A stretch of 64,000 nucleotides of DNA, from assembly GCF_003014495.1 (NCBI RefSeq), contig NZ_PYGC01000003.1, forward strand, positions 124,001 through 188,000, in the 5' to 3' direction. The stretch comes from Prolixibacter denitrificans. GTDB lineage: Bacteria > Bacteroidota > Bacteroidia > Bacteroidales > Prolixibacteraceae. A program made the position numbers and the translations under genes. Within the stretch, counting starts at the first letter, position 1. Each line of letters starts with the position of its first letter. This document shows, one piece after another, positions 1 through 14,121 of this stretch. The notes below the pieces were generated by a model. The model saw nothing but the letters and a program-made list of their open reading frames with translations. It made no database searches and was not told the origin of the DNA.

Positions 1-56
1 ACAACATCCTGCAGAACGATAAAAACAACAGGAACTATAGGAACAATAGGAACCTT
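1..56. repeat. 9-bp AAC-type tandem repeat (locus 1)
   Basis: Positions 15-53 are four consecutive 9-bp units of the form AACnAnAGn (AACGATAAA, AACAACAGG, AACTATAGG, AACAATAGG). The same 9-bp unit recurs at about ten intergenic places in this window, so it is a dispersed repeat family. It lies just downstream of the minus-strand ketopantoate reductase gene. Confidence 0.75.
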
Positions 57-983
57 TTATTCCTTTCGCGCTTTGAGCTCGGCGGGAACCAAACAGGAAT
101 AGACAAACTGATTGACCGGCACATCGACATTGAACTGGCTGGCGAGTTTAACCACTGTGCCGTTCTGGTATTCCAGTTCTGAAGGATTGCCGGCCCAGAT
201 ATCACGAGCTAGTGACGTTGTGGAATCAGGAGCGAGTGAGTCGATAAAACCAACATTCTTTTTCACGAAATCTTCACCGAAAGGAATTCCCGCTTCACGC
301 GCCAGGGTCACAATCTCGTTGAGCAAGTCGACCATGAGTTTTCGCGTTTCGGGTATCGAACGAAGCTCACCGTAGTTGGTATTGGTGATGGCCATCAGGC
401 CGCTCACACAAATAAAGATGAACTTTTTCCATAGCTCCATTTGAATATTTTCAGCAACGGTTGCCTGGATGCCGGCTTTCTGCATCACTTCCTTTAGTTG
501 CTGTACCCGTTTCGATTTGGTATTATCAGCCTCACCGAATATAATTTCGGGGGTATGCGCAAAGTGATTGATGACTCCGGGAGCCTCCACCTTACTGATG
601 ATTTTGCATAAACCGCAGATTACCGGTTCTGCTCCGATGGCTTCGCGCAGTTCGTCGTACGTTAGTAAACCATTTTGCAAGGGCAAAATGACCGTCTGTT
701 CGCCAATGAGACCATCCAGCTGAACCGCCATATCTTTCACCTGCCAGGCTTTCAGTCCGATGATAATGAGATCGACTTTCCCGATTGTTTCGATATCGTC
801 TGTAGCCTGCACATTGTCTAAGTGAAAATCGCCCAGCACACTTTTCACCGTCAGACCAACGGTCCGCATGGCTTCGAGATGGGCGCCCCGGACCAGAAAG
901 GTTACCTCATTACCGGCCTGGGCCAGCCTTCCACCAAAATATCCTCCAACTCCTCCTGCTCCGATTACCGCAATCTTCATCAC
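57..983 (-). CDS. panE: 2-dehydropantoate 2-reductase (ketopantoate reductase, ApbA/PanE family)
   Basis: Predicted cytosolic NADPH-dependent enzyme that reduces ketopantoate to pantoate for coenzyme A synthesis. The N terminus carries a Rossmann dinucleotide-binding motif, GAGGVGGYFGGRLA, at about residues 8-21. The PLQNGL stretch near residue 100 is a family signature. The 308-residue length is normal for PanE. Two adjacent ATG codons are possible starts. No other pantothenate gene is next to it, and Bacteroidota often carry several ApbA paralogues, so a different 2-oxoacid substrate is possible. It lies 16 bp downstream of the HAD phosphatase gene on the same strand, so the two may be co-transcribed. 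Confidence 0.85.
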   Translation of the reverse strand: MMKIAVIGAGGVGGYFGGRLAQAGNEVTFLVRGAHLEAMRTVGLTVKSVLGDFHLDNVQATDDIETIGKVDLIIIGLKAWQVKDMAVQLDGLIGEQTVILPLQNGLLTYDELREAIGAEPVICGLCKIISKVEAPGVINHFAHTPEIIFGEADNTKSKRVQQLKEVMQKAGIQATVAENIQMELWKKFIFICVSGLMAITNTNYGELRSIPETRKLMVDLLNEIVTLAREAGIPFGEDFVKKNVGFIDSLAPDSTTSLARDIWAGNPSELEYQNGTVVKLASQFNVDVPVNQFVYSCLVPAELKARKE

Positions 984-999
984 AGCTGTCCTTTCTGTT

Positions 1000-2001
1000 T
1001 TACTTATTTGGTTGGTTAAATACCACTTTGAAATCTTTTTTCATACTAACAATGTTCCATCCGTGTGTCGACATGGAATCTTTCCAAGCGGGACAAGGTG
1101 TACCGTGCCATGGACTATATTTATATTCCCGTTTGGCATCGTCGTGGTTCAACATGAACGAAATGTTGGGCAACGGATTGGCCGAAGCCATGCGGAACAT
1201 GCCCCAATCACCGGTGGTATTTCCAAAAGCAAAAACAGGGGCCTTCCCAATGTGACGATAGATGTTTACCGCTTTGCCGTTGTTATTATTCGATGGCTTA
1301 AATATGGCAGGTTCCAAAACAAACTCTGTTCCTTTTCCGGGGTGAAAGACGGGCTGCATCGCCTGGCTGGTACCAATCAAATGGTTGCGATCGAAGCCCA
1401 GCGCTTTGGGACAAACGCTCCACATGAGTCCCTGCAGTGAGCCCGAAACGACATACACGTTAAACTGGTTAACTTTCAAATACGAAATCAGTTCCAACAT
1501 AGGTGGATAAAACATTTTGGCCAGCGGAATATGATAATCGCGATTCATGGCCGTATCCAGGTAGGCTTTGGTGAACTTCACATACTTTTCATTATCCCAA
1601 CCTTTAAAGGCATTCATGATCATGGGCTGAATAGTTGGTCCCCAATGATTGGTTACAGATGTATCTTTCGGATTGACTCTCAGTTTTTCAGCATAACGAT
1701 ACACCGGATTTTGCAGGAGCGAACTGTCTTTGTCTGCCTGTAGGCATAAGCCCTGTACAGCACTGTACATCTCAAACCAAAGTGGAGCCTCACAAGCGAG
1801 CGTTCCGTCCATGTCGAAAACCGCAATACGATCCTTTACCGGAATTTGCGGCACTTTATTCGTGACAAAGTCAATAATTTTCGCTTTTTCGGGAGTGTTG
1901 TTCCACGATGGCAGCGGATCGGTTTTGGTTGGTGCACAACTAGTGGCCATTCCTAGTAGCAGGATGAATATCCAGGCATTTCGGTACATCAAAGTTTTCA
2001 T
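1000..2001 (-). CDS. Exported HAD-superfamily phosphatase, lipoprotein
   Basis: The protein starts with a lipoprotein signal (MATSCAPT, Cys about residue 22), so it is probably membrane-anchored outside the cytoplasm. HAD motif I is visible as FDMDGTL (about residues 63-69), with the nucleophile and acid/base aspartates in the DxD form. Motif II is VVSGS, and motif IV is probably the NTTGDWGMF stretch. This arrangement resembles phosphoserine-phosphatase-like HAD hydrolases, of which exported forms are common in Bacteroidota. The substrate cannot be told from sequence. At 333 residues it is somewhat longer than a bare HAD domain, with a C-terminal extension. Confidence 0.75.
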   Translation of the reverse strand: MKTLMYRNAWIFILLLGMATSCAPTKTDPLPSWNNTPEKAKIIDFVTNKVPQIPVKDRIAVFDMDGTLACEAPLWFEMYSAVQGLCLQADKDSSLLQNPVYRYAEKLRVNPKDTSVTNHWGPTIQPMIMNAFKGWDNEKYVKFTKAYLDTAMNRDYHIPLAKMFYPPMLELISYLKVNQFNVYVVSGSLQGLMWSVCPKALGFDRNHLIGTSQAMQPVFHPGKGTEFVLEPAIFKPSNNNNGKAVNIYRHIGKAPVFAFGNTTGDWGMFRMASANPLPNISFMLNHDDAKREYKYSPWHGTPCPAWKDSMSTHGWNIVSMKKDFKVVFNQPNK

Positions 2002-2325
2002 ATGTTATATACTTATCTGATTTCTTTAGTCTCTTATTTTTGCTAAAATACAGATACACGTAAAGATTGACAGACCTTTTATGTAAAATTTATATAAATA
2101 ATCATGCACCGGCCGCGGGCGGGTATTTCCTAACGGAATAAGAATGAAATTATCACATTTTTCTCGGATTGTTTCTATACTTCGGGTAGCTTTCCACCCA
2201 TGTTTCCCGGAAGAAACATTCATTTTAACCGGTTATAAATAGCCGAAAGTTTTTGTCTGGCTGAGCGTTCTCTCATATTTAATACTATTTTTGATCGTGT
2301 TACTAATTACCTAATTGTTGTTACC
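2002..2325. promoter_or_regulatory. Divergent intergenic region upstream of the nikR-like gene
   Basis: No convincing gene is present; a 65-codon minus-strand reading frame at 2026-2223 has no recognisable features. On the + strand, TATTTTTG at 2286-2293 matches the Bacteroidota -7 consensus TAnnTTTG exactly. It is followed at 2297-2306 by GTGTTACTAA, the same word found in one arm of the inverted repeat upstream of larE. This suggests that the nikR-like gene is itself controlled at this site. A good -33 TTTG at the usual distance was not found. Confidence 0.5.
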
Positions 2326-2727
2326 ATGGGAGTTTCTCGTTTTGGCATATCTATCGAACAGGATTTGCTCGATTCACTCGATGAGTACGTGAAGGAAAAT
2401 CAGTTTTCGAACCGTTCGCAAGCGATCCGTCATCTGATAAGCAAAAGCATGGTGGAACATAAATGGCAATGCAACAACAACGTGGCTGGTTCGGTCACCT
2501 TAATTTATGATCCGCATAAGCGGGAACTTCTGCAGCTGTTATCAGCCATTCAGGAAGAATTTTTTGACGAAATCTTATCAACGCAACGTTTCATGCTGGA
2601 AAAAGATAAGTGTCTCGAAATTGTAGCAGTGAAAGGGATTGCCCGACGATTGACTGAGTTGTCAGATAAGCTTATTAGTATCAAAGGGATGCAACATGGG
2701 AAATTAACGATGACCCGCGCCGATTAA
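2326..2727 (+). CDS. nikR: NikR-family ribbon-helix-helix regulator lacking the usual nickel ligands
   Basis: The first 45 residues form a ribbon-helix-helix DNA-binding domain (RFGISIEQDLLDSLDEYV, then SNRSQAIRHLI). The C-terminal half is the ACT-like NikR domain, recognisable by SVTLIYDPHKREL and DKCLEIVAVKG. Length (133 aa) is normal for NikR. By gapless alignment to remembered E. coli NikR, the nickel ligands His76, His87 and His89 are replaced by Glu, Arg and Met; only the Cys95 equivalent is present. It lies directly upstream of the lar genes, so it most likely regulates them, but it may sense something other than Ni(II) in the standard square-planar site. Confidence 0.85.
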   Translation: MGVSRFGISIEQDLLDSLDEYVKENQFSNRSQAIRHLISKSMVEHKWQCNNNVAGSVTLIYDPHKRELLQLLSAIQEEFFDEILSTQRFMLEKDKCLEIVAVKGIARRLTELSDKLISIKGMQHGKLTMTRAD

Positions 2728-2744
2728 TTATTTTTTTGCTCCAA

Positions 2745-2776
2745 TAGTAACACGTTTTCACAAAAGAGTATTACTA
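2745..2776. promoter_or_regulatory. Inverted-repeat operator candidate upstream of larE
   Basis: TAGTAACAC (2745-2753) and GTATTACTA (2768-2776) form an inverted repeat matching at 8 of 9 positions with a 14-bp spacer. NikR operators are known to be long dyads with about 21-22 bp between half-site centres, which this fits. One arm (GTGTTACTAA on the other strand) also occurs at 2297-2306 before the nikR-like gene. The site lies 18 bp before the larE start, where binding would block transcription. Confidence 0.6.
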
Positions 2777-2793
2777 ACTAAATTATAACCCGA

Positions 2794-3615
2794 ATGACAT
2801 TATCGCATAAAACAGTTGAAAAGCTCGAGGCACTGGAACAATGGTTTCGAAAACGGGAAGGCTCTATTGTAGCCTTTTCAGGAGGAATTGATTCTTCGCT
2901 GGTGCTTTTCCTTGCCCGAAAATTTCAGGAAAAAGAAAAAGCTATTGGAGTGATTTCCAATTCCGAAAGCCTGAAGAAGAAGGATTTCCTGTTAGCCAAA
3001 GATTTTTGTGAACAGTTTGATATTCATCTGGAAATCATCAAAACGGAAGAACTGGTTGACGAACGCTATAACCAGAATCCGGTTAACCGATGCTTTTTCT
3101 GTAAAGAGCATCTCTTTCACGACTTAAGTCAAATCTGTGAAAAATACCCCGGTTATCAGGTTTTGAGTGGTACCAATTATGACGATTTGGGTGATTTTCG
3201 TCCGGGAATTGACGCGGCTAAAAAATATGAGGTGCTGTCGCCCATGGTTGATTGCCAGGTAACGAAGGAAGAGTTGCGCGAAATAGCCCGGCATTTTGAA
3301 TTACCAAACTGGGATAAACCCGCCAGTCCTTGTTTGAGCTCCCGTATTCCTTATAACCAAACGGTTACACTGGAGAAATTGAAACAGATTGAAGCTGCTG
3401 AAGATATTCTGAACGGCTATGGTTTCGAAGATGTGCGGGTACGCCATTACGGAAATTACGGGAAGATTGAGGTTAGACCGGATGATTTGCAGAAACTCAC
3501 ACTTGTTCAGGACGAGGTGGTGGAGAAAATCACTGCTCTGGGGTTTGAACGCTGTGAAGTCGATCCGGAAGGACTTGTTTCAGGCAAACTGAACCGGGGA
3601 GTAGCCCGCCAATAA
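2794..3615 (+). CDS. larE: ATP-dependent sacrificial sulfur transferase LarE
   Basis: LarE adenylates and then thiolates the carboxylates of pyridinium-3,5-biscarboxylic acid mononucleotide during synthesis of the nickel-pincer cofactor. The PP-loop ATP-binding motif AFSGGIDSSL is at about residues 27-36. The SPCLSSR motif near residue 180 holds the cysteine equivalent to the sacrificial sulfur donor of Lactobacillus LarE. Further cysteines at NRCFFCKEH may matter in iron-sulfur-using variants of the family. Length (273 aa) is typical. It is the first gene after the regulator, with larC 35 bp downstream. Confidence 0.93.
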   Translation: MTLSHKTVEKLEALEQWFRKREGSIVAFSGGIDSSLVLFLARKFQEKEKAIGVISNSESLKKKDFLLAKDFCEQFDIHLEIIKTEELVDERYNQNPVNRCFFCKEHLFHDLSQICEKYPGYQVLSGTNYDDLGDFRPGIDAAKKYEVLSPMVDCQVTKEELREIARHFELPNWDKPASPCLSSRIPYNQTVTLEKLKQIEAAEDILNGYGFEDVRVRHYGNYGKIEVRPDDLQKLTLVQDEVVEKITALGFERCEVDPEGLVSGKLNRGVARQ

Positions 3616-3650
3616 AAACACGACAATAATACATTGATAAAAATCCAACC

Positions 3651-4823
3651 ATGAAGATTCTATATTACGATTGTTTTGCCGGAATCAGCGGCGACATGAA
3701 CCTGGGGGCGATGATCGATTTGGGGGTCGATGCCGGTTACCTGACAAGTGAACTGGAAAAGCTTCACATCGATGGGTTTCACCTGGAAATTACAAAGGAT
3801 ATTCGCCGGGGAATTTCAGGAACCAAAGCAACCGTGGTTATTGAAAATCCGGAAAATGAGAAGCATCGTCACTTGCGGCATATTGAAGAGCTTGTGAATC
3901 AATCTTCCCTTTCGGAGAACGTGAAAAAGAATGCGCTGAATATTTTCAGGAGAGTAGCCGAAGCCGAGGCCAAAGTGCACAATATCGATATCCAGAAAGT
4001 TCACTTTCATGAAGTGGGAGCACTCGATTCCATTGCGGACATTGTCGGAGCGGCTATTTGCCTCGACTATCTGAATGTAGACAAGGTGCTTTCATCACCA
4101 ATCCAGCTGGGGGGTGGAATGGTTCAATGTGCGCATGGTTTAATGCCGGTCCCGGCGCCGGCAACTGCACTTATTGTGGAAAATATTCCAGTGAAAACCG
4201 GATTGGTGCAGCATGAGGCCACAACCCCAACCGGAGCAGCGATTCTCGCTGCCATGGTAGACGAATTTACGGAGAAGATTGATTTTCCGGTTACCCGAAC
4301 CGGTTACGGTATTGGTCAGCGCGATGTGCCGGACGTACCTAATGCCTTGCGTTTGTACCTATCGGAAACGAAAGGCGACATGACTGATGTAAAAGTGGAA
4401 ACGGCTACCATGCTGGAATGCAACATTGATGACATGAATCCTGAGCGGTATGGTCATCTGCTGGATTTGCTCTTCGAAGCCGGTGCCAGTGATGCCTGGC
4501 TAACCTCACTGATCATGAAGAAGTCAAGACCGGCCACGCAGTTGTCGGTGTTATGCCCCGAAAATCTGGGTATGGATATGAAGCAAATCATCTTCGAAAA
4601 TACCACATCGATCGGGTTGCGTGAATATACTGTTCAAAAAAGCATGTTGCGGCGTGAAGAGCGAAACATGGAGACAGAAATCGGAACGATTCGGGTGAAA
4701 GAAAGTTTCTACAACGGAAAAAGGATTCATGCCAAGCCCGAATTCGAAGACTGTAAGAAGCTGGCGGTCCAGCATAATATCTCTATCAGCGAAGTAGAAA
4801 AAGTAGTAGCTAAACATCTTTGA
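3651..4823 (+). CDS. larC: Nickel insertion protein LarC (pyridinium-3,5-bisthiocarboxylate nickel chelatase)
   Basis: CTP-dependent nickel insertase of NPN cofactor synthesis. The N terminus (YYDCFAGISGDMNLGAM) is the conserved LarC start. The KVHFHEVGALDSIADIVGAA stretch and the EATTPTGAAIL motif are family signatures, and ECNIDDMNPE begins the C-terminal LarC2 domain. In Lactobacillus plantarum LarC is made by programmed frameshifting of larC1/larC2; here both halves are in one uninterrupted frame of 390 codons. The stop codon is followed after one base by the larB ATG, which indicates translational coupling. Confidence 0.95.
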   Translation: MKILYYDCFAGISGDMNLGAMIDLGVDAGYLTSELEKLHIDGFHLEITKDIRRGISGTKATVVIENPENEKHRHLRHIEELVNQSSLSENVKKNALNIFRRVAEAEAKVHNIDIQKVHFHEVGALDSIADIVGAAICLDYLNVDKVLSSPIQLGGGMVQCAHGLMPVPAPATALIVENIPVKTGLVQHEATTPTGAAILAAMVDEFTEKIDFPVTRTGYGIGQRDVPDVPNALRLYLSETKGDMTDVKVETATMLECNIDDMNPERYGHLLDLLFEAGASDAWLTSLIMKKSRPATQLSVLCPENLGMDMKQIIFENTTSIGLREYTVQKSMLRREERNMETEIGTIRVKESFYNGKRIHAKPEFEDCKKLAVQHNISISEVEKVVAKHL

Positions 4824-4824
4824 T

Positions 4825-5565
4825 ATGACAACAACCGAGATTCTCGAACAATATAAAAGCGGCAACCTCGAACTGGAAGATGCGCTCAGGCATCTTTCCG
4901 GGAACGGGATCGATGAGATGGGATTTGCCACGTTGGATACCGACCGTATGCGGCGTACCGGACTTCCCGAAGTGATTTATTCTTCGGGGAAAACAGTTAA
5001 GCAGGTAGCCCAAATTGCTAAGAGAATGTATCAGAATGGGATGGATATTCTGGCGACCCGTGTTACCGATGCCATGTTTGATGCGGTGAAAGAGGTTGTG
5101 CCCGGGGCGCAATACAATCCATTGGCAAAAACCATTACTTACAAGCACTCGGAAAAGAAAACAGGGAAAGGTTATGTTGCCATTGTGGCTGCCGGCACAT
5201 CGGATATGCCTGTTGCCGAGGAAGCGGCAGAAACGGCCCGTTTTCTTGACCAAAAAGTAGAAACGGTATACGATGTCGGGGTGGCTGGTATTCACCGGCT
5301 ATTTCACAAGCTTGAAGTGATTCGTGAGGCTCGTGTAATTATTGTGGTGGCCGGGATGGAAGGAGCGTTAGCCAGTGTGGTTGGTGGATTGGTCGATAAG
5401 CCGGTTATCGGGGTTCCTTCCAGCGTTGGCTACGGTGCCAACTTCGATGGTCTGTCGGCTTTGCTTTCGATGCTGAACAGTTGTGCCAGCGGTGTTTCGG
5501 TGGTGAATATTGACAACGGTTTCGGAGCAGCTTGTCAGGCTGCACTAATCAACAAACTTAACTAA
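4825..5565 (+). CDS. larB: NPN cofactor biosynthesis carboxylase LarB
   Basis: LarB carboxylates and hydrolyses nicotinic acid adenine dinucleotide to give pyridinium-3,5-biscarboxylic acid mononucleotide, the first step of the pathway. The C-terminal half is PurE/AIR-carboxylase-like (VAAGTSDMPVAEEAAETA; GVPSSVGYGANFDGLSALL). The N-terminal region has the conserved FATLDTDRMRRTGLPEVIY stretch. Length (246 aa) is typical. With larE and larC immediately upstream the whole cofactor pathway is present in the order E-C-B. Confidence 0.95.
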   Translation: MTTTEILEQYKSGNLELEDALRHLSGNGIDEMGFATLDTDRMRRTGLPEVIYSSGKTVKQVAQIAKRMYQNGMDILATRVTDAMFDAVKEVVPGAQYNPLAKTITYKHSEKKTGKGYVAIVAAGTSDMPVAEEAAETARFLDQKVETVYDVGVAGIHRLFHKLEVIREARVIIVVAGMEGALASVVGGLVDKPVIGVPSSVGYGANFDGLSALLSMLNSCASGVSVVNIDNGFGAACQAALINKLN

Positions 5566-5573
5566 TTTTGAAA

Positions 5574-6278
5574 ATGGATGGGTTACATCTGCTTCTGATT
5601 ACAGCTGCGACACTGGGTTTTGTTCACACGGCTCTGGGTCCCGATCACTATCTGCCGTTTATCGTATTGAGCAAGGCTCGAAACTGGTCGCAGACCAAAA
5701 CGCTTTGGCTCACCTTCATTGGTGGTGTAGGACACATCAGTGGCTCGGTGGTTCTGGGTATTGCCGGCGTGGCGTTAGGCATTAGTGTCCATAAGCTGGA
5801 AGCCATTGAATCTTATCGTGGAAACATGGTTGGCTGGTTGCTGATTGCTTTCGGAGTACTTTATTCCCTTTACGGGATATACAAATACCTCAAAAACGGT
5901 GGACACATACATCTGCCACACTTCCTTGTTCCTAAAAAAATCAGGGAACTGCCCCATCTACCCATGTCTGACGGACAAAATAAGGAAGACAACACCAAAT
6001 TAACGCCGTGGATTCTCTTTCTCATTTTTGTTTTTGGCCCATGCGAGGTACTGATTCCTTTACTTATCTATCCGGCCTCTCAACACAATGCCTTCGGAGT
6101 GTTTGCGGTTAGTATTATTTTCGGTGTTGCTACTATTATTACCATGCTTACGGTTGTTTTATTAGGATACAAAGGAAGTTCGCTGATCAAAATTAAAAAC
6201 CGCGAGAAATACCTTCACCTTTTTGCCGGCGTGATTATCCTGATAGCCGGACTGGGCATGCAATTTATGGGATGGTAA
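5574..6278 (+). CDS. Integral membrane protein, likely nickel permease (NicO/UreH-like)
   Basis: A multi-spanning membrane protein of about 234 residues with six or so hydrophobic segments. The first segment contains HTALGPDHYLPF, which resembles the metal-binding histidine/aspartate signature of NicO/UreH and NiCoT transporters. It starts 8 bp after larB and ends the operon, so nickel supply to LarC is the most economical role. A TTG six bases upstream could extend it by two residues, but the ATG at 5574 is the better start. Transport of another substrate (TauE-like export) cannot be excluded from sequence alone. Confidence 0.7.
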   Translation: MDGLHLLLITAATLGFVHTALGPDHYLPFIVLSKARNWSQTKTLWLTFIGGVGHISGSVVLGIAGVALGISVHKLEAIESYRGNMVGWLLIAFGVLYSLYGIYKYLKNGGHIHLPHFLVPKKIRELPHLPMSDGQNKEDNTKLTPWILFLIFVFGPCEVLIPLLIYPASQHNAFGVFAVSIIFGVATIITMLTVVLLGYKGSSLIKIKNREKYLHLFAGVIILIAGLGMQFMGW

Positions 6279-6334
6279 GTAACTGTTGACTAAAACGATG
6301 AGCATTCAAGTTCAAGCTACGATGATTAATCAAA

Positions 6335-9190
6335 TTAATACTGCAATATCAAATCGATTAGATTATCGTCGTGGCTGAGTCCCATTTTCTTCCTCAGCCG
6401 GTAGCGATGATTTTCAACGCCTCGAACGGTAATTCCCAAAAGCGGGGCAATCTCTTTGGAAGATAAGTTCATTCGCAGGTAGGCGCACATCCGCAAATCC
6501 TTGGTCGTTAAATCCGGGAAATCGTCTTTGATCTTCCGCAAGAACTGCTCATGCGCCTGCTCGAAGTTGGTTTCAAAAATCTGCCAGTCATCATGACTCG
6601 AAATATTCTTGTCAATCTTCTTCACGATGTCGTTAAAATACTTATCCGGATAACGGGTGCCCAACTGCTCTTTCTGACGCGTCAGCAATTGCTTCAGGTC
6701 GAGCAGAAACTCGTTCTTTTTAATCATCGACATAGTAGAGTTCGCCAGCTCTTTGCTTTTGTGCTCTACCTCTGTCCGCAAGTTTTTGTTCCGGAGCAAA
6801 ATCAACTCGCGTTCCCTCTTTTCGATATGGATGCGCTGCTTTTTCTTGGTACGCCTTGCTCCCCACGCCTGGAATAGAATGGAAAAGACCACCAGCAAAA
6901 CAAAATACCCGACCTTCGCCAGCGTAGTACTGTACCAGGGTTCCTGCACTTCCAGTGTAAGCGAATTAACCCGGCTTTCGTTGTTCCACAAATCGGTTGC
7001 TTTTACCTGTAACTGATAGGTTCCCGCCGGCAGACGGTCGAAACGGAAGACAGACGATTCGGACTTATCGGACCACTTTTGATCGATTCCTTTCAAAAAA
7101 GCCTGGTAAAAAACCGGTTCGGCGGAGTAATGCGGAAATGAATAGCGAACCTCGATGCTGTTGCGGCTGTAAGTCACTTCCAGCGCATGGTTAACCGGAA
7201 CCTCATTGATGGCGTCGTTCCTTCGGTTGATGAGTTGGAGTTCGCGTATTCTCGGTGCAAAATTGGCAATGGTTTGCAGTGTGTCGTTCTGGGATGCATT
7301 CAACCAGGCGATACCGTTTTCCAAACAAAGAATCCCTTTATCTGCCGTTACCGGCAAAATATTCTCAAAATCATCGAATAACGGGTTTTGTTTGAAATAG
7401 GAAGTCGGATAGGACTTGATCAAATGCACCTCGTTCATGGTAATATAGAACAAGCCAATCTTTTTCGATGAAATCAACCAATAGTGATGATCGGGAGCTT
7501 TGACAATTTTGTGCGCTTCGCGGTAATCTCCGATGCGCTGATTCAGATAGGTATAAGGGATAATCGTATCGTTCAAATCATCATAGGTAAACAACTTCTC
7601 CTTGGTCGTGAATACAATCCGGTCTTCCACTTTAAACACATTCAGCGAATGCTCCTTTCCAAACACCGATGATTCGCCGTAATACTTCTGCCCGACCACT
7701 TTGTCGCGTTTATCATTCAACTCCAGTTTGTATATCCCGCGGTGCATATGACTGGCCCAGACATTTCCCAAATGATCGATTTCGATGTACCGGATTAAAT
7801 CGGTAAATCCCTGAATGATATTTTCCATCACAAGGTGACGGTTCACTTCCTTATAGGAAATTAAGCTATTGTATGTCGACTGGATATAATGGTCTCTTCT
7901 CTTGATGTCTTCCTTAATGGAGAAACCACCCGAATTACGGGAGATAAATCGCTCCTTTCCGTTCTCAACAACAATGGTCCCTTCGTTATGCCCAACCACT
8001 AACTGGTCACCAATAACGCGCAGATCCCAGTTTTGCGACTGTGTGTTAGGGACCAACTTATACTTCGCGTCAGAATCGGATAAATCTTTGGAGAAAAGGC
8101 CCTGGTTGGTACCTAAATAAATGTGATTCTGAAAGATAGCCGCCGAATAAACCGCCCCAATATTCGGGATACTTTCAATCCGGACGCCATTACTATGCCG
8201 GTTCCCGATAAAATCAATTCCATGATCAAGTGCCAGCCAGATATTGTTGAACTGATCGCCGGCGATTCCCAAAACAGTGTTATTCTGGAGGCCATTGGAA
8301 TGGTTGTACTTTCGAATTAGGTTCTCCGACTTATCGAACACCACAATTCCATCGACGATGGTTCCGATGACCAGGTTCCCGTTCGGCATAAAAAACCCAC
8401 GGTTCAACTCATTTTCTCGGAAGTAAGGGGTCAGGTTGGGTTTCCATTGTGTTAATTGCTTACCATTCCATATAACGATACCGCCGGAAGCGGTTCCAAT
8501 CATCAGTTGATCCTCTTTGTAGGGAAGAATAAACCGGATAATCTTACCAGCAAAAAACGGATCGATGGCTACAGGAGAAATTTTCAACCCGGATAATTGG
8601 TAAATTCCTTTATCTCTCACTCCTATCAATATCTTGTCCCGAACCCGGTTCATCACATTCGTGAACCCAGGCAGACTGACGGATGTAACCGAATCATGTT
8701 GATATAGAAGAATCCGGTTAAACGAATGAAAATAAATCCGATGCTTATCACTGGCTATATTCCAAAATTCCTCGTTCTTGGAGAAATAATGCTCTGCCTG
8801 CGGATTGAGAGAGTGATAAACCAATTCACCCGATGGTTGTCTTTTCCAAACTCCCATTTCGCGGTAGCCGCTGGTATAAATCAGGCTATCGTTCACTGCG
8901 AGCACAGCCCGTAAAATCGTTTCGTTTGGCAGCCGATGCAGCCTCCAGCTCGTACCGTCGAATTCCAGCAAACCATTGTTGTTGGCAAAGTACATCATCC
9001 CATCGCGCCCCGCACTTACCCCCCAGTTTTGTGCAGCGGCACCGTATTCCATCTTGCTAAAGTTATTGATATCTTCCACCACCATATGTCGCTGACTGGC
9101 AGCGGTCCATATAGAATCCTGTTCCTGACAGTATACAGATAGGTGAGGTAAAAACATCAAACAAAACAGAAAAAAGCAAGTTCTTCCCAT
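6335..9190 (-). CDS. Membrane-spanning PUL regulator: beta-propeller, Y_Y_Y domain, LuxR-type HTH
   Basis: Residues 1-21 are a signal peptide (ends SVYCQ). About residues 40-670 are periplasmic beta-propeller repeats of the two-component-regulator type. A Y_Y_Y domain follows (about 680-750, SFPHYSAEPVFYQAFLKG). One transmembrane segment (about 760-780, VGYFVLLVVFSILFQAW) leads to a charged coiled coil. The C terminus is a LuxR-type HTH (LSSKEIAPLLGITVRGVE). There is no histidine kinase or receiver, so unlike hybrid two-component regulators it would carry a periplasmic glycan signal directly to a cytoplasmic DNA-binding domain. It is divergent from susC and most likely activates the locus. 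Confidence 0.88.
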   Translation of the reverse strand: MGRTCFFLFCLMFLPHLSVYCQEQDSIWTAASQRHMVVEDINNFSKMEYGAAAQNWGVSAGRDGMMYFANNNGLLEFDGTSWRLHRLPNETILRAVLAVNDSLIYTSGYREMGVWKRQPSGELVYHSLNPQAEHYFSKNEEFWNIASDKHRIYFHSFNRILLYQHDSVTSVSLPGFTNVMNRVRDKILIGVRDKGIYQLSGLKISPVAIDPFFAGKIIRFILPYKEDQLMIGTASGGIVIWNGKQLTQWKPNLTPYFRENELNRGFFMPNGNLVIGTIVDGIVVFDKSENLIRKYNHSNGLQNNTVLGIAGDQFNNIWLALDHGIDFIGNRHSNGVRIESIPNIGAVYSAAIFQNHIYLGTNQGLFSKDLSDSDAKYKLVPNTQSQNWDLRVIGDQLVVGHNEGTIVVENGKERFISRNSGGFSIKEDIKRRDHYIQSTYNSLISYKEVNRHLVMENIIQGFTDLIRYIEIDHLGNVWASHMHRGIYKLELNDKRDKVVGQKYYGESSVFGKEHSLNVFKVEDRIVFTTKEKLFTYDDLNDTIIPYTYLNQRIGDYREAHKIVKAPDHHYWLISSKKIGLFYITMNEVHLIKSYPTSYFKQNPLFDDFENILPVTADKGILCLENGIAWLNASQNDTLQTIANFAPRIRELQLINRRNDAINEVPVNHALEVTYSRNSIEVRYSFPHYSAEPVFYQAFLKGIDQKWSDKSESSVFRFDRLPAGTYQLQVKATDLWNNESRVNSLTLEVQEPWYSTTLAKVGYFVLLVVFSILFQAWGARRTKKKQRIHIEKRERELILLRNKNLRTEVEHKSKELANSTMSMIKKNEFLLDLKQLLTRQKEQLGTRYPDKYFNDIVKKIDKNISSHDDWQIFETNFEQAHEQFLRKIKDDFPDLTTKDLRMCAYLRMNLSSKEIAPLLGITVRGVENHRYRLRKKMGLSHDDNLIDLILQY

Positions 9191-9534
9191 CGCCTGTCAT
9201 TTAAATTCTTATTGCTTTCAAATGCCTGTTATTCCCCCGTTTCTGCCCAAATATAACGATGTAACAAGCTCCTTTTATCATCATTCTGCATGATTTTATC
9301 AAAACATGTTGTACATCATATTAACATTTTTTTACATGTTTTAATAATTAGGAACACACTTAAACCCTGACTATAAGACACTTAATCATTTAAACATTAT
9401 GATATGAGTAGCAATGATGAGGCGATTTTTACACTTCACTTCACGATGAGAATAAGTAGTGTGGAAAGATTTTAAACAGCTAAAGAGAACCGGCCTAATT
9501 TTAATTCCACAAACTGTTACAAAAAAGTGAACCT
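9191..9534. promoter_or_regulatory. Regulator/susC divergent control region with long inverted repeat
   Basis: The 344-bp gap separates the divergently transcribed regulator and susC. AAAACATGT (9301-9309) and ACATGTTTT (9334-9342) are a perfect 9-bp inverted repeat 24 bp apart, centres about three helical turns apart. This is a good candidate site for a dimer of dimers of the LuxR-type regulator. On the minus strand, the complement of 9248-9255 reads TATATTTG, a match to the TAnnTTTG -7 box of the regulator gene. No equally good -7 box was recognised for susC. Confidence 0.5.
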
Positions 9535-12500
9535 ATGAAAAAATTAACGATTCTCTTTTCTTTATTAATTTCGGTTGCAACAGTTTTCGCCCAACAGCGA
9601 ATAACTGTCTCCGGTACGATTACCGAAGCTGCCACCGGAAACCCCATCCCGGGGGTAACTGTTCTGGTCAAGGGGACGACCACAGGAACTGTTACTAATG
9701 TCGATGGCCAATATACCATCGAGGCAACCGGTGATGCTGTACTGACTTTCAGCTTTGTCGGAATGGAAAGTCAGGATATTGCCGTTAATAACCGAACGAA
9801 TATCGATGTTTCGATGCAGCCTTCCACCCAACAGGTCGACGAGGTTGTAGTAGTAGGTTACGGTAAATTAAATGTAAAAGACCTGACTTCATCTATCGCT
9901 ACCGTGAAGTCAGATGAGTTGGTCAAAACACCCACAGGACAGGCCATGCAGGCTTTGCAGGGGAAGGTTGCCGGTGTACAGATTATCAACTCGGGAGCTC
10001 CGGGTGGTGCACCAACCGTTCGAATCAGGGGAATTGGTTCTTTCCCCGGCAGCAGTGATTCAAGTCCTTTATACGTTGTCGATGGAGTATATTTTGACAA
10101 CATCGACTTCCTTAACCCGTCTGACATACAAACTTTATCGGTATTGAAAGATGCTTCAGCTGCTGCAATCTATGGTGTAAGAGCAGCCAATGGCGTTGTA
10201 TTGATTACAACCAAAAAAGGTACTTTGAATACCAAATCGCAGGTAAGTTACGACGGCTACATCGGGGTTCAGGTACCTCAGAATGTATTGAAAATGGCCA
10301 ATGCAGAGCAGTTTGTCAACTACGTTAATCAAACGGGAGCAGCTGCTGATATAAGTTATATCGCCAATGCCATGCAGCGCTACGGCAGAAGCCGTATCAA
10401 CCCGAATGTACCGGATGTCAACACAGACTGGTATAAAGAGATCATGCATTCAGCATCACGCCAGCAAAATCATTCTCTCTCTATCACCGGAGGTGACAAA
10501 AACACCGATTATTCACTGGGAATGAGCTACTTTGAACAACAGGGACTGTTAAAAACCAAAAACTCGTATGAACGACTGAACCTCAGGGGTAACCTGGATC
10601 AGGAGGTCAACAACTGGTTGAAAGTTGGACTGAACCTGAATTTAAGTAATGGAATTAAATATATAGCGGATGACGGAGCCTGGTTTGCAGCCTATCACGC
10701 TGTCCCGGTCTTACCTGTATATGATCAGGATAATTACGATCAGCTGACAGCAGATAATGTTGCCTATGCAAGCAATTATGCAAGTGCACAATTGTTAGGT
10801 TATCGTGGGGCACAAAACCCGTTCTTTAACCTTGCTTATACGAACCACCGGCAAGATATTAAGAAGGTATACGCAGGCGCTTACAGTGAAATATCCATCA
10901 TACCCCAAAAACTAACATTCAAAACAGATTACAACGTGTCGTGGATGTTCTTGAGGGACCGTAACGTTGGATTACCGTATTATGTTACTACGAACACGAA
11001 CAGACCTCTTTCAACTCTGACTACTTCCAGAACGTTGCAAGCCAATAAATATTTAGACAACGTACTGACCTACACGGATAAATTCGGTCGTCATAACGTC
11101 ACGGCCATGGCAGGAACCTCATACCGCGACGAGTGGTACGACTGGTTGAAAGGATATGCGGAAGACGTACCGCTCCAGCCTAATTCATGGTATATTGGTC
11201 AGTCCCGTTCCGAAGACTCCAAAACTGTTGATGACAATGCAGAAAGAATTTACGGAATGTCCTATTTTGGCCGTATTGCCTATAATTACGGAGGTAAATA
11301 CCTGGCATACTTCACGCTTCGTAGAGAAGGCACCTCCAAGTACCAGGAGAAATGGGGTACATTCCCTGCGTTCGGACTCGGTTGGGTCGTTTCTGAAGAA
11401 AACTTCTTCAAAAATGTGAGATTCATTAATTACCTCAAACTTAGAGGTGGTTGGGGCCGACTCGGAAATGACAAAATTGCCCGTCAGGATGGAGCCAATA
11501 CGACTACTCCTGTTTACATCGCTGTCGACGACACCAAAACTGATGGTACCACAACGACCAGTACATTTGGTTACCTGGGATGGGAAATCGTCGAAGGTAA
11601 AAACGCTGGTCTGAGTGCCCGTTTATTCGACAGCCGTCTGAATATTGAGTCTGACTACTATATCAGGGATACCAAAGACGCAGCCATTCCCGTTCTCCTC
11701 AAACTGCAGCCCGGAAGTGTTCTGAAGAATGTGGGTGTTATCCGGAACTCAGGATTTGAACTCTCGTTAACCTGGAATGATCAAATATCAAAAGACTTAA
11801 GCTATACAATCGGTGCCAATATATCCACACTGAAAAATGAAGTACGAGACCTTTACGGACAGCAATATCTAGATGGTGGAAGTGCTGAATTCCGTCAACG
11901 GTCGCAGGTGGGTGAACCGCTGCTCTCATTCTACGGATATCAGGTTGCCGGTGTATACCAAAACCAAGCCGAAATAGATGCCGATCCGATCGCAACGGAT
12001 AATGGTCTTGTTCCCGGGGACTTCAAATTTGTTGACCAGAACAACGACCAGGTAATCGACGATAATGACAAAGTATTCTTAGGCTCTTATTTCCCGGATT
12101 TGACATACGGTGCAAATCTTGGCTTAACTTATAAGAACATCGAATTCTCGATGAGCATCATGGGACAAAGAGGAAATAAAATCCTGAACCGAAAAAGAGG
12201 CGAGATCATTTGGACCAATGACACGAACATCGATGCTGACCTTGCCAACGGACTATGGCATGGAGAAGGAACTTCCAATAAGTATCCTTCAGCTGCAGCC
12301 CTCAGACGTGGTTGGGACCAGAACTTCAGCGATTACCTCCTTGAAGATGGCTCATTCTTCCGGATTCAAAATGTCCAGCTTGCCTACAATATCAAAGGCT
12401 CGAAATTGTTAGGTGCCGGTATGCCCGATGCAAGGGTTTATGTAACCGCAGAGAAACCTCTGACTGTATTTAACTACAACGGCTTTAGCCCGGAAGTTCC

Positions 12501-12570
12501 CAACGGTATCGACCGTCAGTTCTACCCGGTTCCGGCAGTTTATACGATTGGACTTAATCTTAAATTCTAA
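9535..12570 (+). CDS. susC: SusC/RagA-family TonB-dependent outer-membrane transporter
   Basis: Outer-membrane barrel that imports oligosaccharides with its SusD lid. Residues 1-19 are a signal peptide (ends TVFAQ). About 22-105 form a carboxypeptidase-regulatory-like domain ending in the VDEVVVVGYG TonB-box region. The plug follows (GVQIINSGAPGGAPTVRIRG; SPLYVVDGVY; LKDASAAAIYGVRAANGVVL). The remainder is the 22-strand barrel, ending in the aromatic C terminus LNLKF. Length 1011 is normal. The susD gene follows after 12 bp. The substrate is inferred from the downstream enzymes to be a beta-1,2-glucan. Confidence 0.96.
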   Translation: MKKLTILFSLLISVATVFAQQRITVSGTITEAATGNPIPGVTVLVKGTTTGTVTNVDGQYTIEATGDAVLTFSFVGMESQDIAVNNRTNIDVSMQPSTQQVDEVVVVGYGKLNVKDLTSSIATVKSDELVKTPTGQAMQALQGKVAGVQIINSGAPGGAPTVRIRGIGSFPGSSDSSPLYVVDGVYFDNIDFLNPSDIQTLSVLKDASAAAIYGVRAANGVVLITTKKGTLNTKSQVSYDGYIGVQVPQNVLKMANAEQFVNYVNQTGAAADISYIANAMQRYGRSRINPNVPDVNTDWYKEIMHSASRQQNHSLSITGGDKNTDYSLGMSYFEQQGLLKTKNSYERLNLRGNLDQEVNNWLKVGLNLNLSNGIKYIADDGAWFAAYHAVPVLPVYDQDNYDQLTADNVAYASNYASAQLLGYRGAQNPFFNLAYTNHRQDIKKVYAGAYSEISIIPQKLTFKTDYNVSWMFLRDRNVGLPYYVTTNTNRPLSTLTTSRTLQANKYLDNVLTYTDKFGRHNVTAMAGTSYRDEWYDWLKGYAEDVPLQPNSWYIGQSRSEDSKTVDDNAERIYGMSYFGRIAYNYGGKYLAYFTLRREGTSKYQEKWGTFPAFGLGWVVSEENFFKNVRFINYLKLRGGWGRLGNDKIARQDGANTTTPVYIAVDDTKTDGTTTTSTFGYLGWEIVEGKNAGLSARLFDSRLNIESDYYIRDTKDAAIPVLLKLQPGSVLKNVGVIRNSGFELSLTWNDQISKDLSYTIGANISTLKNEVRDLYGQQYLDGGSAEFRQRSQVGEPLLSFYGYQVAGVYQNQAEIDADPIATDNGLVPGDFKFVDQNNDQVIDDNDKVFLGSYFPDLTYGANLGLTYKNIEFSMSIMGQRGNKILNRKRGEIIWTNDTNIDADLANGLWHGEGTSNKYPSAAALRRGWDQNFSDYLLEDGSFFRIQNVQLAYNIKGSKLLGAGMPDARVYVTAEKPLTVFNYNGFSPEVPNGIDRQFYPVPAVYTIGLNLKF

Positions 12571-12582
12571 ATTCTCCGAAAG

Positions 12583-14121
12583 ATGAAATTAAACAAGATA
12601 AAAATACGCTATTATCTGCCTGTTCTTCTCAGCGGGCTGTTAATGCTACCGGTATCCAGTTGTACCGACAAATTAAATGCACCTTTTGAAGATGAATCAT
12701 TTACAAGTGATGTGGATTACTCGAAAGGGCAAGACATGATTTTGCCGCTCATTGGGGCATATTCCAAATTCTATGATCAGTCATGGGATGGAGCTATCAC
12801 CTACAGTTTACGCGGTGACGATGTTGATGCAGCTGGTGACCAGGCTCCTATGCAGGAGCAGGACAACTATAGCTACCAGGCCAGTCACTGGAATATCAAT
12901 GCATTATGGCAACACCAGTATGATGCCATTGTGAATATTTTCACCGAAATCGATGAAATCAACAAGTACCGGCCTGCTGCCAACAATGATGCGCTGGCAG
13001 ATCAGTATATTGCTGAATGCCGCGTCATGAGAGCGTGGGAATACCTGACGCTGGCCAAAACCTTCGGTGGCTGTATTATCATCGACCAACTGGATAACAT
13101 TCAGAATACGCCGGTGAGCAACAAGCAGGAAGTAATGCAGTACATCGTGGATGAGATGAACGAAGTGATTCCGGATTTACCGGCGGTAAGACCTAACGAG
13201 CGCACCGACGTAAAAGGTGGAATTACTCAATTCACAGCATACGCCATCCAGGCAATGGCTTACCAGGAAATGGAAAATTACCAGGGAGTTGTTGATGCCA
13301 CTTCGGCTATCATCAATTCCGGTAAGTTCAGTTTGTCAAATGACTTTTACCACCTGTTTAAAACAGCCGGTAAATTGAACGATGAAAACATTCTGGAATT
13401 CCAGTTCTCAGACTTTGGACAAGGACAGGGCGATAGTTTTAATCACCTGTTTGCGCCATATGGTACCGGAGCCTGGACACCTGTAGTTGCTGGAGCTGGA
13501 GCTGGATGGGGATTCTATGCACCATCGCTGAAATACGTCGAATTCATGCTCGACAGAGGTGAAACCGTTCGCTTGGAAACATCCGTTGTTTTCACACCGG
13601 ACGGCATCACTCAACTTCAAAACGACTACGGTACACTTCCCAGTTGGATTAGTAATACAAACAGGGAAGGCGACGTGTTTAACAATACTCCCCGTTTGAA
13701 TTTCGGAAGTGGTAAGTTTATCCAACCGTCTACTGAATTGATACCTGGAAGAACTTCTCCGGGAAGCAATAAGAATTTTATTGTTATCCGGTATTCCGAA
13801 ATGTTGCTGATGTATGCAGAAGCCCTGACCAGGGGTGCGTCGAGCAATATTAGCATGACCGCCGACCAGGCCGTGAATATGGTAAGAGAACGTGCAAATT
13901 TGGGAGATCTGAGCGGTGTAACCACACAACAGGTTCTCGATGAGAAATTTGCAGAGCTTGCCACTGAGTGGGGTATCCGTTTCTTCGACATGGTACGGAC
14001 TAAAAATACAGCTGAACTGAGCTATGGAGGCAGAACATTTACCATGGACAAGGCTTATTTGCCTTTCCCGGCAGCTCAGGTGTCTACACTGCCGCAATTG
14101 GCAGACGGAGTCCAAAACTAA
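12583..14121 (+). CDS. susD: SusD/RagB-family surface glycan-binding lipoprotein
   Basis: A lipoprotein signal (LPVSSC, Cys27) puts the protein on the outer membrane, where it acts as the lid of SusC. The TPR-like SusD fold is indicated by the family stretches CRVMRAWEYLTLAKTFGG and YSEMLLMYAEAL, and the C terminus FAELATEWGIRFFDMVR is typical of RagB/SusD. Length 512 fits. It is transcribed with susC and is followed after 13 bp by a LamG surface protein. Confidence 0.95.
   Translation: MKLNKIKIRYYLPVLLSGLLMLPVSSCTDKLNAPFEDESFTSDVDYSKGQDMILPLIGAYSKFYDQSWDGAITYSLRGDDVDAAGDQAPMQEQDNYSYQASHWNINALWQHQYDAIVNIFTEIDEINKYRPAANNDALADQYIAECRVMRAWEYLTLAKTFGGCIIIDQLDNIQNTPVSNKQEVMQYIVDEMNEVIPDLPAVRPNERTDVKGGITQFTAYAIQAMAYQEMENYQGVVDATSAIINSGKFSLSNDFYHLFKTAGKLNDENILEFQFSDFGQGQGDSFNHLFAPYGTGAWTPVVAGAGAGWGFYAPSLKYVEFMLDRGETVRLETSVVFTPDGITQLQNDYGTLPSWISNTNREGDVFNNTPRLNFGSGKFIQPSTELIPGRTSPGSNKNFIVIRYSEMLLMYAEALTRGASSNISMTADQAVNMVRERANLGDLSGVTTQQVLDEKFAELATEWGIRFFDMVRTKNTAELSYGGRTFTMDKAYLPFPAAQVSTLPQLADGVQN

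Follow-up and report, generated by a model that had tools for sequence, protein, structure and literature searches.

The window analysed here, 64,000 nucleotides of contig NZ_PYGC01000003.1 of Prolixibacter denitrificans, contains a gene for a NikR-like regulator that is flanked by two predicted operators and followed by a lar operon and a gene for a membrane protein (Table 1). The original prediction held that the regulator heads a complete nickel-cofactor operon. The lar genes do follow it, but the operon is complete only as regards synthesis of the cofactor: the genome's one Lar_N (LarA-like) match (34.8 bits; L002:754-2037, minus strand) lies on a different contig, far from these genes. 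The membrane protein has no NCBIfam match at E 0.01. Near its start stands the stretch GFVHTALGPDHY, which we take to resemble the HX4DH signature of nickel/cobalt permeases, and homologues of the protein are encoded within 1.5 kb of eight regulators that keep the three histidines and the cysteine of the nickel site (His3Cys). Among named records, the close relatives are Prolixibacteraceae such as Sunxiuqinia, in the phylum Bacteroidota.

Table 1 Features of the regulator locus, in positions of the window
Feature	Position	Strand	Basis
NikR-type operator GTGTTAC-N14-TTGTTAC, directly before the regulator start codon (predicted)	2297..2324	.	One mismatch to GTRWYAC-N14-GTRWYAC
NikR-like regulator, 133 aa, RHH + NikR_C/ACT-like, without His3Cys site	2326..2727	+	Intact ORF, profiles, model
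Ribbon-helix-helix (RHH) DNA-binding domain, residues 5-39	2338..2442	+	Pfam RHH_1, 24.3 bits (cut-off 20.5)
Codons of the hinge motif Trp47-Gln48-Cys49, with W47 and C49 fixed in 126/126 distinct site-less homologues	2464..2472	+	
NikR_C regulatory domain, residues 54-130	2485..2715	+	Pfam NikR_C, 82.7 bits, over cut-off; superposition on 2bj7
Glu77 codon, position of EcNikR His76	2554..2556	+	Alignment
Arg88-Phe89-Met90 codons; 88 and 90 at positions of EcNikR His87 and His89	2587..2595	+	Alignment
Cys96 codon, position of EcNikR Cys95, sole retained ligand	2611..2613	+	Alignment
Thr110 codon, invariant in 126/126 distinct site-less homologues	2653..2655	+	
NikR-type operator GTAACAC-N14-GTATTAC, between regulator and larE (predicted)	2747..2774	.	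Exact pattern match
larE	2794..3615	+	TIGR00268, 277.5 bits, over cut-off
larC, C1 and C2 domains in a single ORF	3651..4823	+	TIGR00299 and NF052512, over cut-offs
larB	4825..5565	+	NF033503, 301.8 bits, over cut-off
Membrane protein, putative nickel permease	5568..6278	+	Weak DsbD_2 match (Pfam PF13386, 34.1 bits)

Fold and metal site of the regulator

The ribbon-helix-helix domain is normal, as originally described, with RHH_1 above its Pfam cut-off. Against the NCBIfam models, the regulator passes the NikR equivalog NF003381 (132.3 bits, cut-off 105) and NF002815 (86.3 bits, cut-off 83), and reaches 73.8 bits with TIGR02793, below the cut-off of 175.45. NF003381 is also passed by all ten other homologues without the nickel site that were scanned (11/11 with this regulator), so the model says nothing about the nickel site.

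A phmmer comparison with solved structures aligned the regulator over its full length with Pyrococcus horikoshii NikR (2bj1, 2bj7; 6e-31 for 2bj1), and also with Helicobacter pylori NikR (2ca9, 6mrj), which has the same domains. The ligand region is free of gaps against both. The His-His-His-Cys positions are occupied by Glu77, Arg88, Met90 and Cys96, which at an offset of 11 correspond to His88, His99, His101 and Cys107, given as the nickel ligands of the H. pylori protein (PMC9860126). Unlike the regulator, P. horikoshii NikR carries histidines at the first three of these positions and a valine where the regulator has Cys49, and the linker of H. pylori NikR is four residues longer in the phmmer alignment. 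An AlphaFold2 monomer model built from eight aligned sequences has a mean pLDDT of 78.6, and 87 residues of its regulatory domain fit onto nickel-bound 2bj7 (Z 15.9, rmsd 1.5 A). The superposed spans, residues 47-133 of the model and 48-134 of the 2bj7 chain (register read from the span ends), are equal in length and therefore imply a single constant offset, in the same register as the sequence alignment. Neither the sequence alignment nor the superposition places a histidine at any ligand position of the regulator. The substitution of Glu, Arg and Met for His76, His87 and His89 of Escherichia coli NikR (EcNikR), with only Cys95 kept, was read correctly in the original prediction and also holds in this structure-based comparison.

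The second (K+) site of EcNikR, whose ligands are given as Glu30 and Asp34 in PMC7055735, is likewise absent, the aligned columns of the regulator being Gln32 and His36. The regulator has the RHH and NikR_C domains, the equivalog score, the operator sequence and the linkage to nickel genes that mark a NikR, and lacks the square-planar His3Cys nickel site. Judged on its sequence, it fits the name NikR for fold and DNA recognition only, because the defining site was looked for and is missing.

Distribution and history of the loss

The survey for NikR_C covered 140 genomes of the same family, 393 drawn from the order and 392 drawn from the phylum, all within one phylum and with one draw per rank; 108, 101 and 63 of these genomes, respectively, have a match. 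Of the 64 matches of the phylum draw, 24 were left out of the survey. One locus (L009) repeated another (L140) and was removed. The completed set comprises 247 proteins, 243 of them distinct, or 242 after removal of a broken fragment (L358), a second, stop-interrupted nikR-like copy in one family genome (G053) of which the N-terminal fragment was read. Two proteins, L228 and L350, are N-terminally short, and L350, which does not extend as far as residue 49, was counted as His3Cys without Cys49. Seven weak loci without a full homologue (L351-L357) were excluded. L352 gave no match at all; the six others, weak NikR_C matches, align with the NikR profile at 13-19 bits over the ACT-like part only, without an RHH part in the match, and apparently represent a different small protein family, presumably TM1266-like. 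Neighbour classes, operators, entropy and dN/dS refer to a 214-row set that preceded the addition of the last 40 loci, and in the 3.2-kb loci L197-L256 neighbours are visible only to about 1.5 kb.

The complete site is absent from 126 of the 242 distinct homologues and present in 116. We call a protein site-less when it does not have all four of HHHC; among 129 such rows, 70 keep none of the ligands, 49 keep one, eight keep two and two keep three. Within the family, His3Cys occurs in 6 of 113 loci (7 of 115 with L008 and L009 counted). Our search of the open-access literature found no report of this site-less group, a large one whose scanned members (11/11) score as 'nickel-responsive transcriptional regulator NikR' without the site that defines the name. 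Because that site is absent, a nickel response predicted from the name may not hold for this group.

None of the 35 lar-linked rows has a complete site, and among receptor-linked copies 74 are without it and 23 have it. A TonB receptor, not lar, thus adjoins 74 of the 129 incomplete-site rows, and loss as a lar-specific event is rejected, the receptor-linked copies having lost the site as well. The original prediction had raised the possibility of a Glu/Arg/Met/Cys pattern shared by NikR proteins next to lar genes in Bacteroidota. The survey speaks against it: the combination occurs in just three lar-linked copies out of 35, and in the 214-row set none of the 179 other rows has it, which leads us to reject it as a conserved alternative site. 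The ligand columns are variable after site loss, with 19 different combinations among the 35 lar-linked copies. In the 34 distinct proteins of this class no column varies more than position 96 (His 9, Cys 8, Ser 4, Trp 4, Thr 3, plus further residues).

For the history of the loss, 104 representatives were placed on a tree built without the ligand columns and those of the hinge residues (126-128 columns kept, with many weak forks). On it, site loss amounts to four changes, with four to five in the bootstrap trees and at least three forced by well-supported branches, and a single site-less clade is rejected by the AU test (p 0.0015). The tree thus indicates that the nickel site is lost more than once, and a single event is rejected. 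Among ten close site-less pairs, dN/dS was 0.015-0.067 in the eight where dS could be computed; dS was saturated in two, including the pair formed by the present regulator and its nearest relative (pN 0.075, pS 0.754). By these measures the site-less proteins are not decaying.

Operators and gene neighbourhoods

The operator at 2747-2774 is the only exact pattern match in the 4.73-Mb genome. Sites with at most one mismatch, among them 2297-2324, number 20, compared with 23 for a control pattern, which is chance level, so that only the exact match stands out. In many relatives, half-sites of the form GTRTTAC/GTAAYAC stand at -29 and -8 relative to the start codon, and they are repeated in the gap before the next gene. 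They match the consensus predicted for delta-proteobacterial NikR, GTGTTAC-N13/14-GTAACAC, which is described in reversed orientation also (PMC545781). Most targets described in that source are nickel transporters, together with one hydrogenase operon, whereas here the regulator adjoins a lar operon and its relatives a TonB receptor.

We counted operator pairs before or after each gene (at most one mismatch, half-site spacing 20 or 21) and compared them with mononucleotide shuffles, 20 per region; the shuffled expectation was at most 0.3 per class. Pairs were found at 73 of 74 receptor-linked site-less loci (expectation 0.3), at 22 of 35 lar-linked site-less loci (expectation 0.15) and at 3 of 19 'other' site-less loci, and at this threshold are absent from 13 lar-linked and 16 'other' loci. 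Among His3Cys loci they occur in 14 of 15 with Cys49 and in 33 of 70 others; by neighbour class, the loci without Cys49 have operator-like sites in 5/8 to 13/15, with 15/47 in the rest. DNA recognition looks unchanged in the site-less proteins. For lar operons apart from the regulator, 30 listed LarC matches were read as loci, of which six have the regulator elsewhere and a readable region upstream of larE. An operator lies shortly upstream of larE in two of these six (G109, G110), and no such site in the other four (G009, G020, G097, G120). Left out of this comparison were G018, G019, G103 and G129, which end at a contig edge, and G089 and G103, which have no NikR_C match.

The receptor beside site-less regulators forms one orthologous group, 73 of 74 reaching 300 bits or more against a single reference; other receptor matches in the eight genomes searched reach at most 92 bits. 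The same receptor adjoins His3Cys regulators: among those with a receptor neighbour, 12 of 15 that have no Cys49 and 6 of 8 that have it. The source genome keeps an orthologue (L303; G000 C2:303289-305094; 486 bits), apart from the regulator. The stretch examined there contains no operator pair at a spacing of 20-21 and has scattered single half-sites with at most one mismatch. The idea of cobalamin riboswitches close to the receptor was considered and rejected: Rfam gathering matches in 11 loci are three tRNAs only, and there is none in positions 1-14000 of the window. In the 140 family genomes LarC is found in 61 and NikR_C in 108, and the regulator therefore often occurs without the cofactor genes. 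The same genus has three further listed genomes, and in two of them (G112 and G113) NikR_C and LarC are absent together.

Hinge residues and the probable signal

Constraint is distributed differently in the two groups. Among 84 distinct His3Cys proteins, entropy is zero at all four ligands, and positions 49 and 110 are variable, with ranks 16 and 4 among the 133 columns. In the 126 distinct site-less proteins it is Trp47, Cys49 and Thr110 that have zero entropy, and the former ligand columns rank 1, 17, 11 and 16 of 133. In the completed set, Cys49 and Thr110 occur together in 126 of 126 site-less and in 25 of 116 His3Cys proteins, so the new residues can coexist with an intact site. The AlphaFold2 model is weak at the hinge (mean pLDDT 52 for residues 41-50, with values below 50 for 42-47). 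It places Cys49 just before the first ACT strand (52-61), and Thr110 within the helix 106-117 that follows the third strand (95-105). Assuming ferredoxin-like topology, Cys49 and Thr110 presumably lie where the sheet comes closest to the DNA-binding domain, at a distance from the nickel site. In the alignments, Thr110 corresponds to E. coli Gln109, the neighbour of His110, and Trp47 to Trp54 of H. pylori NikR, a residue reported to sit at the interface between the domains, through which the nickel signal is relayed (PMC9860126).

The reading we favour, at a probability of roughly 0.5, is that the protein is a functional, autoregulated NikR-type regulator, likely a repressor, which has lost the His3Cys site and whose sensing site has moved to the hinge around Cys49. 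It would bind both predicted operators, the one ahead of its start codon and the one that separates its gene from larE, and would control itself, larE-larC-larB and the putative nickel permease; repression is suggested by the position of the operators. The effector site would most likely have left the subunit interface for the hinge that joins the DNA-binding domain to the ACT-like domain. The relocated site may lie around Trp47-x-Cys49 and Thr110, which makes Cys49 with Thr110 a specific candidate sensing site. The signal is probably still nickel-linked, because the operator and the TonB-receptor neighbour are common to relatives with the nickel site; it could be a soft metal bound by the Cys49 thiolate, Ni(II) or another, or else a compound formed in nickel metabolism. 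Several points stand against this reading, among them the site-less loci and the unlinked lar operons that have no operator, and the chance-level count of one-mismatch sites in this genome. Cys49 as one clean clade is rejected (AU test, p 0.008), and the residue has therefore been gained or lost more than once. A hinge site would also be without precedent in H. pylori NikR, because changes to its inter-domain linker are described as leaving nickel-activated DNA binding unaffected (PMC9860126).

Feedback on cofactor synthesis, with the nickel-pincer nucleotide or a precursor sensed through the ACT-like domain, would suit a regulator that heads a cofactor operon, the lack of a complete site in all lar-linked rows, and a fold resembling the small-ligand ACT domains of phosphoglycerate dehydrogenase, acetohydroxyacid synthase and RelA-type proteins (Z about 10-11). 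We nevertheless consider it unlikely, since the receptor-linked incomplete-site rows carry the same invariant residues and the regulator so often occurs without cofactor genes. It is also improbable that there is no effector, a packed, metal-free interface fixing the DNA-binding form to give an autoregulated repressor that is constitutive and governed by its dosage. Positions 77 and 88 covary as if still packed together (F/Y-G 30, E-R 14 and L-Q 9 of 126, uncorrected for kinship), but the invariance of Cys49 and its presence in 26 of 116 intact-site proteins would go unexplained. An invariant cysteine beside the DNA-binding domain might instead be a thiol redox or electrophile switch at the hinge, tying the operon to oxidative state. 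The neighbours make this quite improbable: the lar genes, the orthologous receptor group and the putative permease are no known redox-stress genes, and the receptor is common to relatives with the nickel site.

Glu77, Arg88, Met90 and Cys96 might themselves form a new metal site, given Cys96 and two further possible donors. Arginine is, however, an unusual metal ligand, and with the combination so rare and position 96 so variable among lar-linked copies, this idea is very unlikely. Equally hard to credit is a relic, a decaying and no longer relevant gene: loss of the defining site would fit, but the ORFs are intact, dN/dS is low and operators recur.

More broadly, and more tentatively, a metalloregulator family may have dropped its defining metal site repeatedly and in parallel after gaining a hinge effector site (Cys49/Thr110), with operator and neighbours kept and intermediates that have both sites still alive; this would be a transcription factor caught swapping its sensor. 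His3Cys homologues from the order and phylum resemble the site-less proteins in their operator-like sites and orthologous receptor; they differ in keeping the metal ligands, and in 91 of the 116 at least one of Cys49 and Thr110 is missing. Proteins with the nickel site only, with both and with the new residues only thus make up a natural series for a change of signal with the regulon kept.
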